A stretch of 64,000 bases of DNA from Paenibacillus taihuensis (GTDB taxonomy: Bacteria; Bacillota; Bacilli; Paenibacillales; Paenibacillaceae): the NCBI RefSeq assembly GCF_003386535.1, contig NZ_QTTN01000001.1, positions 62,001-126,000 of the forward strand, read 5' to 3'. Shown here piece after piece: positions 6,789-48,211 of this stretch. The notes beneath the pieces were generated by a model. It had not been told where the DNA came from and made no database searches. It worked only from the letters and a program-made list of their open reading frames with translations. The position numbers and the translations under genes are program-made. How positions within the stretch are numbered: the stretch's first letter is position 1; every line of letters starts with the position of its first letter.

Positions 6789-7880
6789 ATGACAAAAATC
6801 GCGATATTCGGCGTCGGTCTGATCGGAGGCTCGCTCGCGCTTTGCTTCAAAGGCAAGCCGGGCATAACAGTTGTCGGCCATTCCGTACGCGAATCATCCG
6901 TAGCCAAGTACCTCGAGAGAGGCGTCGTCGATCATGCGACGACGTCACTCCGCGAGGCCGCGGAAGGCGCGGATTTTATTTTTCTATGCGTGCCAGTCGG
7001 ATCACTGGCGCAATATGTGGACGAGCTCAGCCAGCTCGAGCTGAAGCCAGGCTGCATTATTACCGATGTAGGCAGCACGAAAGCATCGGTAGCTGCATCC
7101 GCGCGTAACGCGAAGCTGGGAGATGCCGTATTCATCGGCGGTCATCCGATGGCGGGCTCCGAGCGTTCAGGCGTAGAAGCCGCATCCTTGTATTTGTTCG
7201 AGAATGCCTTCTACGTGCTCACACCAGACCCGGAGACGCCTCAATACTTCGTCGACCGGCTTACAGAGCTGCTCACGTATACCAAGGCACATATCGTCCA
7301 TGTACACCCGGAGGAGCATGACGAGATCGTTGGCGCGATCAGCCATCTGCCGCATATTATTGCGGTCGCGCTCGTTAACCTGGTTCGCGGCTACAATGAG
7401 GACAATTCATTGTATGCGCAGCTGGCAGCAGGCGGCTTCCGCGACATCACGCGGATCGGTTCCAGCGATCCTGTCGTCTGGCGCGATATTCTCGTGAACA
7501 ACCGCAGCGTACTGCTTAAGCTGCTACAGGAGTGGCAGGCAGGGACGAGCGCGTTCATTGAGATGCTGCAAAGCGAGGATGGAGAAGGAATCGAGAGTGC
7601 ATTCAAGAAGTCGGGACAGTTCCGCAGTACGCTGCCGGAGAGACGCAAAGGTATGATTCATTCCGTATTCGAATGTTATATCGATGTGCCGGACCATCCA
7701 GGCATTATTGGCAATGTAGCGACAGAGCTTGGCAACAGCTCAATCAATCTTAGCAACGTCCAGATTATTGAGAGCAGAGAGGACGTCCCTGGCGTGCTGC
7801 GGCTTAGCTTCCGCACACAGGAGGATCTGGACCGCGCCGTTTATAAATTGGGTGAAATTGGATATTCTGTACATTTTTAA
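6789..7880 (+). CDS. tyrA: Prephenate dehydrogenase with C-terminal ACT domain
   Basis: It oxidatively decarboxylates prephenate to 4-hydroxyphenylpyruvate for tyrosine synthesis. The NAD-binding motif GVGLIGGSLA starts at residue 8, GGHPMAGSE marks the active-site region and SHLPHIIAVAL the helical domain. The last 75 residues (from CYIDVPDHPGIIG) form an ACT domain, usually an amino-acid sensor for feedback inhibition. In B. subtilis aroE follows tyrA; here the operon ends with tyrA. Confidence 0.94.
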   Translation: MTKIAIFGVGLIGGSLALCFKGKPGITVVGHSVRESSVAKYLERGVVDHATTSLREAAEGADFIFLCVPVGSLAQYVDELSQLELKPGCIITDVGSTKASVAASARNAKLGDAVFIGGHPMAGSERSGVEAASLYLFENAFYVLTPDPETPQYFVDRLTELLTYTKAHIVHVHPEEHDEIVGAISHLPHIIAVALVNLVRGYNEDNSLYAQLAAGGFRDITRIGSSDPVVWRDILVNNRSVLLKLLQEWQAGTSAFIEMLQSEDGEGIESAFKKSGQFRSTLPERRKGMIHSVFECYIDVPDHPGIIGNVATELGNSSINLSNVQIIESREDVPGVLRLSFRTQEDLDRAVYKLGEIGYSVHF

Positions 7881-7909
7881 AATGGTTGTTACGAATATGA
7901 AAACGCTTA

Positions 7910-7938
7910 TTGACAGAATGAAAACGTATACATATAAT
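7910..7938 (+). promoter_or_regulatory. Perfect-consensus sigma-A promoter of the candidate small RNA
   Basis: TTGACA (7910-7915), a 17-base spacer and TATAAT (7933-7938) match the housekeeping consensus at all 12 positions. Transcription would start near 7945. No reading frame with a ribosome site follows before the terminator at 7995. Confidence 0.8.
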
Positions 7939-7944
7939 AAGAGT

Positions 7945-8023
7945 ACAGTATGGTTTCTCTCCACTCCTATCCAAATCCATCGCAGAATATGCGGGGCCGC
8001 CTTTATAGGGCGGTCTTTTTTTT
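7945..8023 (+). ncRNA. Candidate small regulatory RNA, about 79 nt
   Basis: The stretch lies between a perfect sigma-A promoter and a strong intrinsic terminator. The 5' half carries a single-stranded-looking pyrimidine tract, TTTCTCTCCACTCCTATCC (7958-7976), able to pair with AGGAG-type ribosome sites, then a weak CGCA/TGCG hairpin, then the terminator stem. This is the usual build of a Firmicute trans-acting RNA. It could instead be merely the tail of the tyrA transcript. No known family was recognised. Confidence 0.5.
7995..8023 (+). terminator. Intrinsic terminator
   Basis: GGCCGCCT (7995-8002) pairs with GGGCGGTC (8008-8015), loop TTATA, followed by eight T residues (8016-8023). It ends the tyrA transcript and the candidate small RNA. 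Confidence 0.9.
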
Positions 8024-8288: not shown

Positions 8289-8325
8289 CCGGGAGCACTC
8301 CTAAGGCCAAGGAGGGTCGCCCGCG

Positions 8326-8922
8326 ATGACGGATTCCCAGCTAATACGCGAAATTAAAGACGGAAACATACAGCTATATTCGGAATTGATGCGGCGCTAC
8401 CAACGTAAGATCCTTGCCTTCATCTACCACATGCTGAAGAGTGCGAAGCTTGAACTGTTGGCAGAGGATCTTTGCTCAGAAACGTTCTACAAGGCGTATC
8501 GAAGCCTGCATTCATTCCGAGAAGTCGATGCTTCCTTCTCTACGTGGCTGTACACCATTGCAAGAAATACGGTATTAAGTGAACTGCGCAAGCAGAAGGC
8601 AGGCAGCGTATCCTTCGATGAAGTTGGATACATACCTATTGCGCCGCCGGATGCCGTGCCTGAACATAGGCTGCTGCAGAGCGAACGAATGTCTATGGTT
8701 CGCGAAGCGATTAACAGCCTGCCGGAGAAACAGCGTTCAGCGCTTATTTTACGAGAGTATGACCAGTTGGATTATCAAGAGATTGCCAGCATTCTTGGTC
8801 AGACGGTCAGCTCGGTGAAATCGCTCCTGTTTCGTGCACGCAGCAGTGTCAAAGTTCAACTCGAACCGTATTTCGGGGAGTCGCCAATGCTGGAGGAATA
8901 CGAGGGGATGAAAATGCGATGA
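8326..8922 (+). CDS. ECF-type RNA polymerase sigma factor
   Basis: The 198-residue protein has sigma region 2 (residues about 8-85, with EDLCSETFYKAYRSLHSF and STWLYTIARN for core and -10 binding) and region 4 (about 120-178, LPEKQRSALILREYDQLDYQEIA then the recognition helix TVSSVKSLLFRAR). ATG 8326 follows CAAGGAGGG. The stop overlaps the next gene (ATGA, 8919-8922), a zinc-finger anti-sigma factor, so this is a classic sigma/anti-sigma pair. The inducing signal cannot be told from sequence. Confidence 0.93.
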   Translation: MTDSQLIREIKDGNIQLYSELMRRYQRKILAFIYHMLKSAKLELLAEDLCSETFYKAYRSLHSFREVDASFSTWLYTIARNTVLSELRKQKAGSVSFDEVGYIPIAPPDAVPEHRLLQSERMSMVREAINSLPEKQRSALILREYDQLDYQEIASILGQTVSSVKSLLFRARSSVKVQLEPYFGESPMLEEYEGMKMR

Positions 8923-42559: not shown

Positions 42560-42587
42560 AGCGATGCAGGGCCGAACTGAATATGAC

Positions 42588-42680
42588 ATGGGGAGCTGGA
42601 CTGAGGCCGGCTGAGAGGAGATCCCTTCAATGATCTCGACCCTTTGACCTGATCTGGATAATGCCAGCGTAGGAATTGCG
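42588..42680 (+). promoter_or_regulatory. TPP riboswitch (THI box)
   Basis: The aptamer is recognisable by GGCTGAGAGGAGATCC in the P2/P3 arm and by GACCTGATCTGGATAATGCC followed by AGCGTAGGAA in the P4/P5 arm, close to the THI-box consensus. It binds thiamine pyrophosphate and, with the terminator at 42756, should switch off the uptake operon when TPP is plentiful. Confidence 0.93.
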
Positions 42681-42755
42681 ATTGTATGTGTTCACATTCG
42701 CCTTCGTGCTTACTTGCACAGGGCAATGGATGAACCGGTACACACAGCTATTTTG

Positions 42756-47354: not shown

Positions 47355-48107
47355 CTATGCGGTTTGGATGAGTGCACGAATGCGGCCGTTCACGTCAGCA
47401 TCGCGATATAGCCCGCCATGGTAGCAGATAACCTGCCCGATGTCACAGGCTGCGAACTGCGCGAGCGACTTCGCGGCGGCTGCCTGATCGTAATTGAACT
47501 GGCCGAGCGCGAGTTCGCCGTCAATGATCGTCAGCGCATCCGCTGCAATCAATGTTCTGCTCGGAGCGTGATAGAGACTGACGTGGCCAGGCGTGTGCCC
47601 CGGAGTATCAATAACTGTGATGCCCTTGAAAGGATGCGCGTTCTCGCCGTATCCGATCAACTGATCGACTGTGCCGGTCGGCGGATGCTCAAGCGCGTAG
47701 CGGAACGCTTGTTTCTGAGTTTCGGGCATGTCTTGCGGGAGCGAAGCAACCGCTTGGTCGATACCGGCCTGGGTCACTTTGATCAGCATTTTATCGCCTT
47801 GAATGTAAGGTCTCTCGATTGCGGATGCCCACACTTGAACGGTGGAGCTGTTCGAGCCTCCCCTCAGGGCAGACAGACTGCCGATATGGTCAATATCTTG
47901 GTGGGTGATAAGGATGTCGGTCAGACGATCAAGCGGCAAGCCTTCATGCTGCAGCGCTTGCTCGATAAGTACGGCTTGACCGGGATAACCGGTGTCGATG
48001 AGGATGGTTTGTTCTTCGTTCCAAATCACAGTTGGGCAAATGGTGTTCGTACGTCCCATAATGGTTGCCGTAATTTCTAAGATGGCGATTCCCGATTGAA
48101 TTTGCAT
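47355..48107 (-). CDS. Metallo-beta-lactamase-fold hydrolase
   Basis: The 250-residue protein has ILIDTGYPG, the metal motif ITHQDIDHIGS (HxDxDH, with Asp in place of the usual second His), DTPGHTPGHVSLYH, AADAL and a final His in CYHGGLY. Substrates of this broad family include lactones and thioesters; none can be named. ATG 48107 with GGAGGG nine bases upstream is chosen over a start 36 bases further up. Confidence 0.88.
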   Translation of the reverse strand: MQIQSGIAILEITATIMGRTNTICPTVIWNEEQTILIDTGYPGQAVLIEQALQHEGLPLDRLTDILITHQDIDHIGSLSALRGGSNSSTVQVWASAIERPYIQGDKMLIKVTQAGIDQAVASLPQDMPETQKQAFRYALEHPPTGTVDQLIGYGENAHPFKGITVIDTPGHTPGHVSLYHAPSRTLIAADALTIIDGELALGQFNYDQAAAAKSLAQFAACDIGQVICYHGGLYRDADVNGRIRALIQTA

Positions 48108-48182
48108 CGTTCTAATCCCTCCGCTAGTGAAGTCTAACGACAATAATAGCGGACGAGTGACTTGCAGTCAAATAAATATTTT

Positions 48183-48211
48183 ATTATATCATATTTTTGT
48201 AATTATGTCAA
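48183..48211 (-). promoter_or_regulatory. Perfect-consensus sigma-A promoter of the MBL-fold gene
   Basis: On the reverse strand TTGACA (48211-48206), 17 bases, TATAAT (48188-48183) preceded by TGA. The 69-base leader contains CCGCTA ... TAGCGG (48152-48147 and 48126-48121), whose 3' arm runs into the GGAGGG ribosome site. Confidence 0.8.

Follow-up and report, generated by a model that had tools for sequence, protein, structure and literature searches.

A candidate small RNA beside tyrA with a near-invariant 5' segment and predicted CcpA control in Bacilli

Background

RsaI (RsaOG) of Staphylococcus aureus is a stand-alone, CcpA-repressed small RNA (sRNA) that pairs with the Shine-Dalgarno (SD) sequences of glcU_2 and fn3K (PMC9266662), and RosA (S345) of Bacillus subtilis is likewise a stand-alone sRNA repressed by CcpA (PMC8216469). 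These two are the nearest in logic to the sRNA gene described here, which lies beside tyrA; each of them has been described as limited to one group (PMC8216469). Sugar regulation in these bacteria rests mainly on CcpA. RsaI differs from the sRNA beside tyrA in being conserved in Staphylococcus and not in Bacilli and in having G-rich regions as well (PMC8216469), whereas RosA is rich in G, lacks a C-rich region and acts as a sponge of RoxS and FsrA (PMC8216469). RoxS/RsaE and FsrA resemble it as Firmicute sRNAs working via C-rich regions, which is in part documented (PMC8216469) and in part generally known; RoxS differs in being under the control of Rex (PMC8216469). SR1 of B. subtilis is also an sRNA under catabolite control but, unlike the sRNA beside tyrA, is longer and controlled mainly by CcpN. 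A transcriptome of P. riograndensis contained 27 small RNAs, three of which were given names (PMC5670726), and the sRNA beside tyrA could possibly be among the unnamed ones.

A search of Rfam 15 gave no family for the sRNA at the gathering threshold, its best score being 22.7 bits against a threshold of 55; when extended to E = 10 it returned 17 matches, with no RsaOG, RsaE or FsrA among them. Membership in any Rfam family, including RsaI/RsaOG and RoxS/RsaE, was rejected because the covariance models were not matched. A 14-mer of the sequence was absent from the open-licence PMC text searched, and topic searches there found no description. Since neither a match to the RsaI/RsaOG model nor a description in the literature searched was found, the sRNA is treated here as a new family.

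Promoter, terminator and predicted transcript

The stretch of DNA analysed, here called the window, is 64,000 nt long and belongs to a genome of 6.79 Mb. From 5' to 3', the locus consists of tyrA, a promoter, a predicted start at about nt 7945, a CU-rich 5' segment, a small stem, a terminator ending at nt 8023 and the gene for an ECF sigma factor (Table 1). The initial annotation had proposed a perfect sigma-A promoter (TTGACA-17-TATAAT) here, followed by a 79-base product ending in a stem and eight Us, with no gene in between. Promoter scoring upheld the first claim, giving 12/12 consensus positions and a 17-base spacer at nt 7910-7938; the product, nt 7945-8023, held as a prediction, a terminator-like stem being found at nt 7993-8017 with eight Ts at nt 8016-8023. 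The third claim held as well, in that the two open reading frames (ORFs) across nt 7945-8023, one of them a second tyrA frame that continues across the terminator and the other in antisense, were both unconvincing. Promoter and terminator are thus established by sequence.

Table 1. Features of the sRNA locus, with positions in the window
Feature	Position	Strand	Basis or remark
tyrA, prephenate dehydrogenase	6789-7880	+	Neighbour; conserved synteny
cre-like CcpA operator 1, TGAAAACGCTTATT	7898-7911	+	Touches the -35 box from upstream; 13/14 to a looser consensus and 12/14 to the published one, TGAAARCGYTTTCW
-35 box, TTGACA	7910-7915	+	Read in sequence; promoter scoring; kept in relatives
cre-like CcpA operator 2, TGAAAACGTATACA	7919-7932	+	In the promoter spacer; 13/14 to the looser consensus and 12/14 to the published one
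-10 box, TATAAT	7933-7938	+	Read in sequence; promoter scoring
Predicted sRNA, 79 nt	7945-8023	+	Start inferred, about 7 nt past the -10 box
Near-invariant 5' segment, GTATGGTTTCTCTCCACTCCTATCC	7948-7972	+	Conservation; largely single-stranded by prediction apart from a weak 3-bp hairpin
Inner 21-mer of the 5' segment, TGGTTTCTCTCCACTCCTATC	within 7948-7972	+	Conservation across the class
Stem 1 (CGCA/UGCG)	7981-7993	+	Copies differ in sequence, most retain the stem
Intrinsic terminator, 10-bp stem and 8 Us	7994-8023	+	Terminator scan; folding
ECF sigma factor gene	8326-8922	+	Frequent other neighbour

Scanned with up to 2 mismatches, the window contained 14 promoter-like matches, compared to a shuffle mean of 3.54. 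Exact 12/12 promoters were two, the one at nt 7910-7938 (+) and another at nt 48183-48211 (-); the latter is situated upstream of a gene for a metallo-beta-lactamase-fold protein (nt 47355-48143, -) and resembles an ordinary gene promoter.

The transcript of nt 7945-8023 was predicted to fold with -21.5 kcal/mol (z = -1.88), and its folding alone is unremarkable because 14 of 200 shuffled sequences were as stable. It is conservation, not folding, that lifts the candidate above chance. The sRNA gene is thereby confirmed at the level of sequence, while transcription itself is inferred from sequence alone.

Distribution and conservation

Each of the 59 genomes in the relatives sample (own genome counted; 31 genera and 11 families of the order) held the gene, as a single match. 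Class-wide, 157 of 398 genomes, representing 66 of 146 genera and at least 29 family labels, matched at up to 3 mismatches, compared to a single genome of the 398 for the reversed pattern. In a phylum sample (n = 299, up to 2 mismatches) all 5 matches fell within the window's own family, and no match was found in genomes labelled only as belonging to the same phylum. The exact 25-mer occurred in at least 118 loci of the named genome collection; carriers included Paenibacillus, Cohnella, Brevibacillus, Aneurinibacillus, Thermoactinomyces and Melghirimyces, as well as Shouchella, Halalkalibacter, Alteribacillus, Marinococcus and Geomicrobium. Identity within this set is biased upward because only exact matches enter it. 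Members that differ at more than 3 of the 25 positions may have been missed, since no covariance model was built. The surroundings of aroA in 28 genomes without a match (30 loci with about 1.5 kb of flanking sequence) contained no counterpart, the best candidate having 7 mismatches in 21; in two of these genomes, aroA itself was only weakly matched (identities of 26 and 33%).

Two matches per genome were observed in two genomes of one genus (G260 and G296; family f32, genus g74), and one copy of the latter (L257) differed in its promoter and had only one hairpin.

In 59 copies, the mean frequency of the commonest base was 0.997 within the 25-mer at nt 7948-7972, versus 0.442 at positions -100 to -60, 0.556 at -60 to -45 and 0.578 directly past the core. 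The conserved part exceeds the CU tract, also taking in ACAGUAUGGUUUCUCUCCACUCCUAUCC and the promoter spacer. Several divergent copies retained the inner 21-mer with altered bases around it, and a few were altered inside.

Copy-level statistics were based on 208 distinct copies of 223, duplicates and copies with short flanks being excluded. A promoter of at least 11/12 preceded the core in 190 of the 208, versus none when the same test was applied about 60 nt upstream. A two-hairpin fold past the core was predicted in 183 of the 208, with 80 distinct stem-1 sequences. When the stem-1 region of 188 copies was compared with shuffled sequences, the mean z was -2.27 and 101 copies were below -2; this is a fairer test than swapping the stem arms, which was partly circular because the arms had been drawn from the folds. 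RNAalifold on a MAFFT alignment gave only 3 weak pairs.

Neighbouring genes

At 164 of 207 loci, tyrA, hisC or aroA (EPSP synthase) was among the two nearest same-strand upstream ORFs. The other side was occupied by genes for an ECF sigma factor, a TPR protein, or unnamed proteins, one of them without a Pfam match. The arrangement was inverted at 19 of the 207 loci, including those of P. terrae, Shouchella and Halalkalibacter, where tyrA or aroA came next downstream on the opposite strand. Its reversed orientation relative to tyrA or aroA at these loci makes the sRNA gene a unit of its own. Having its own promoter and terminator and being independent of the neighbouring genes, it qualifies, as far as sequence goes, as a stand-alone sRNA gene.

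Inspection by eye indicated that the ribosome site of the ECF sigma factor gene (window nt ~8295-8328) is flanked by inverted repeats, CTCCT...AGGAG, and inverted repeats, CAGGTGAGGAGGTTCGCCTG, were also seen at sigma-factor starts in other genera. Possibly, these repeats hide the ribosome site of the sigma factor gene in a hairpin.

cre-like operators

Two cre-like sequences are located at the promoter (Table 1). Scored against the published consensus (PMC3463425), cre sites of at least 12/14 were found in 51 of 59, 77 of 108, and 20 of 41 copies in three sets, for which shuffling predicted 0.6, 1.8, and 0.2, respectively; their presence is thus shown. With the looser consensus, a cre of at least 12/14 lay in the spacer at 157 of 177 loci, and 8 of the 177, including Aneurinibacillus, Pseudalkalibacillus, Melghirimyces and Thermoactinomyces, had no cre by the same test.

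In the copies examined from Halalkalibacter, Alteribacillus, Geomicrobium and Brevibacillus, the cre was 56-66 nt past the core start, in the terminator stem, and some of the terminator-cre copies carried a promoter cre too. For five copies (L084, L085, L092, L130 and L155), the cre palindrome at about +57 to +72 from the core start was seen to form part of the terminator stem. The terminator-stem cre suggests that a single palindrome may double as DNA operator for a protein and as RNA terminator, which is a possibility inferred without experimental data. Labels of cre position were assigned from fixed coordinates, by which four copies with a longer leader and a promoter further upstream (L188-L191) were misplaced; by eye, their cre overlaps the -35 region.

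That the same operator is kept at differing places favours real CcpA control, and its location in the promoter spacer implies repression, by inference. The sites are placed, by sequence, to control the promoter; there are no data on CcpA binding. Both binding and repression of the sRNA by CcpA are therefore inferred, and ccpA itself was not sought in this genome.

Candidate targets

The 5' segment is CU-rich and complementary to SD-type sequences, and could pair with ribosome sites of the AGGAGUGGAGA type. When an 18-nt complement of the core was sought in the 59 genomes at up to 3 mismatches, 178 non-self matches were found versus 176 for the reversed control, self accounting for one per genome. 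Because long complements were not enriched, no single conserved antisense partner is indicated at that length. Near-complete antisense pairing to rRNA or another conserved RNA was rejected on the same equality of matches and reversed control.

The target pattern AGGAGTGGRG before ATG gave 116 matches versus 39 for the reversed control in the 31 genera, and the pattern search in 35 other carriers gave 134 versus 32; the reversed controls of both searches were not matched for SD content. The first reading covered 110 distinct sites, drawn from the search of the 31 genera with some added from a separate search, and 23 of them were dropped for an ORF shorter than 60 aa. The search of the 31 genera yielded ten related pairs, with cggR occurring in two genera and with glyS and hisI pairs also recurrent.

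The gene cggR encodes a regulator of glycolysis (Pfam CggR_N). Its SD region held GGAGTG in 17 of 27 Paenibacillales, and in 15 of 25 with the two genomes that had suggested cggR removed; three of the 30 Paenibacillales loci surveyed (L388-L417) had no start and were left out, and one genome (G045) had no locus. The background frequency of GGAGTG was 62 in 1044 ORFs (5.9%), a set that includes cggR and carriers outside Paenibacillales, and four neighbour-gene families had it in 0/33, 0/33, 0/26 and 1/21; gapA, next in the cggR operon, had GGAGG-type sites. Outside Paenibacillales, GGAGTG preceded cggR in 1 of 29 other carriers and in 0 of 28 non-carriers, and the mean duplex energy for cggR was -15.2 in Paenibacillales, -10.8 in other carriers and -10.7 in non-carriers. 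The signal does not track the presence of the sRNA, and cggR as a universal target is weakened. As a second candidate, ptsI failed, having GGAGTG in only 1 of 30, with a mean duplex energy of -14.05 that was hardly weaker than that of cggR in Paenibacillales.

The second reading comprised 70 of the 134 matches, of which 30 loci were taken automatically and 40 were picked mostly because an A follows AGGAGTGGAG; 59 of the 70 sites came with an ORF of 60 aa or longer. Among these usable sites from the 35 other carriers, acyl-CoA dehydrogenase occurred five times in three families, although two of the five proteins were 91% identical and not independent. Also recurrent, by eye, were ABC ATPases (5), HAD-type hydrolases (3) and short-chain dehydrogenases (3). 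Acyl-CoA dehydrogenase suits a glucose logic poorly because the sRNA would be made during the use of other carbon sources. A thiolase site (L549) was dropped as evidence since it lies inside a gene. In this genome, the strongest duplex among the sites read was that at a site preceding a gene for an FMN oxidoreductase (L370, -29.7 kcal/mol). Target sequences within one family are not independent. No common target with pairing conserved across carriers was found, only lineage-specific candidates; cggR in Paenibacillales and acyl-CoA dehydrogenase in other families are thus leads for single lineages, inferred from sequence alone.

Proposed model

The favoured reading is that of a stand-alone, CcpA-repressed, trans-acting sRNA of Bacilli, about 80 nt in length, which blocks SD sites in the manner of RsaI. 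We consider this likely (probability about 0.72), in the absence of any RNA or protein data. The initial annotation had also proposed a candidate undescribed sRNA of trans-acting type with a CU tract complementary to ribosome sites. The complementarity held, but the tract is only part of what is conserved; an independent sRNA of this type is supported as the best reading, its action on ribosome sites being inferred and no transcript data being at hand. Promoter, CU tract and terminator were kept together across relatives, and the pattern named as refuting, a terminator kept with the tract lost, was reversed, the tract being most conserved and the stems varied. Candidate SD targets turned out to be lineage-specific with none in common. 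The two cre boxes at the promoter and the class-wide spread had been missed.

According to the model, the presence of a preferred sugar would lead CcpA to bind the cre boxes of the sigma-A promoter, or a cre located in the terminator stem in some lineages, and so to shut the sRNA gene off. Upon exhaustion of the preferred sugar the sRNA would be made, and its exposed near-invariant 5' segment, UGGUUUCUCUCCACUCCUAUC, would pair through UCUCUCCACUCCU with the SD regions, the candidate pairing stretch of the sRNA being UCUCUCCACUCC. Such pairing, which is inferred in its mode as in its targets, would hide the SD regions from the ribosome and adjust central carbon metabolism. If true, the model would extend CcpA control in Paenibacillus, Brevibacillus and alkaliphilic Bacillaceae by an RNA arm. 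Counting against the model, the near-invariant 21-mer is longer than SD pairing usually needs, and it invites the question of what keeps the segment fixed.

Alternative explanations

The alternative that survives best takes the 5' segment mainly as a site that binds a protein or sponges up another RNA, and not as a seed for antisense pairing with many mRNAs. In its favour, the 21-nt segment is almost fixed across the class, beyond the usual needs of a seed, there is neither a shared target nor an excess of long complementarity, and RosA, also a CcpA-repressed sRNA, is a sponge (PMC8216469). Against it, the segment is CU-rich and complementary to SD sequences, unlike the G-rich regions of RosA, and recurrent SD matches were found. 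This explanation remains possible.

It is also conceivable, but unlikely, that CcpA activates the sRNA or that the effect of cre differs by lineage. CcpA can act either way depending on the position of its site (PMC3463425), operator 1 lies directly upstream of the -35 box, and other copies have a cre in the terminator. However, CcpA bound at operator 2, in the spacer separating the -35 box from the -10 box, should keep RNA polymerase off the promoter, and a cre in the spacer is the rule at the loci scored.

According to a third explanation, the element is only the 3' end and terminator of tyrA with a chance promoter, or the leader of the sigma factor gene, as might be supposed from its position between these genes on the same strand in the window and likewise in many relatives. 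Both versions were dropped and are all but excluded: they are contradicted by the inverted loci and by the pattern of conservation, in which the downstream genes vary while promoter, core and terminator stay together. A tiny peptide from the ATG at nt 7950, 5 nt past the predicted start, is likewise all but ruled out and was dropped, since third codon positions are equally fixed, 7 of 208 copies have another codon in place of the ATG (CTG in four, GTG in two, TTG in one), and the frame runs on differently from copy to copy.

Beyond the favoured reading of a CcpA-repressed, SD-blocking sRNA, a bolder one can be put forward, namely an ancestral glucose-exhaustion sRNA of Bacilli. This would be an ancient RNA branch of control by CcpA in which the 21-nt segment was kept while the operator moved between promoter and terminator and the targets changed by lineage. 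Lines such as those of B. subtilis and Staphylococcus, from which RosA and RsaI respectively have been described, may have lost it; this loss was not tested by name, and the bolder reading is considered less likely than not.

Elsewhere in the window, a TPP riboswitch was detected at nt 42579-42692 (+) with 63.8 bits, above its gathering score.
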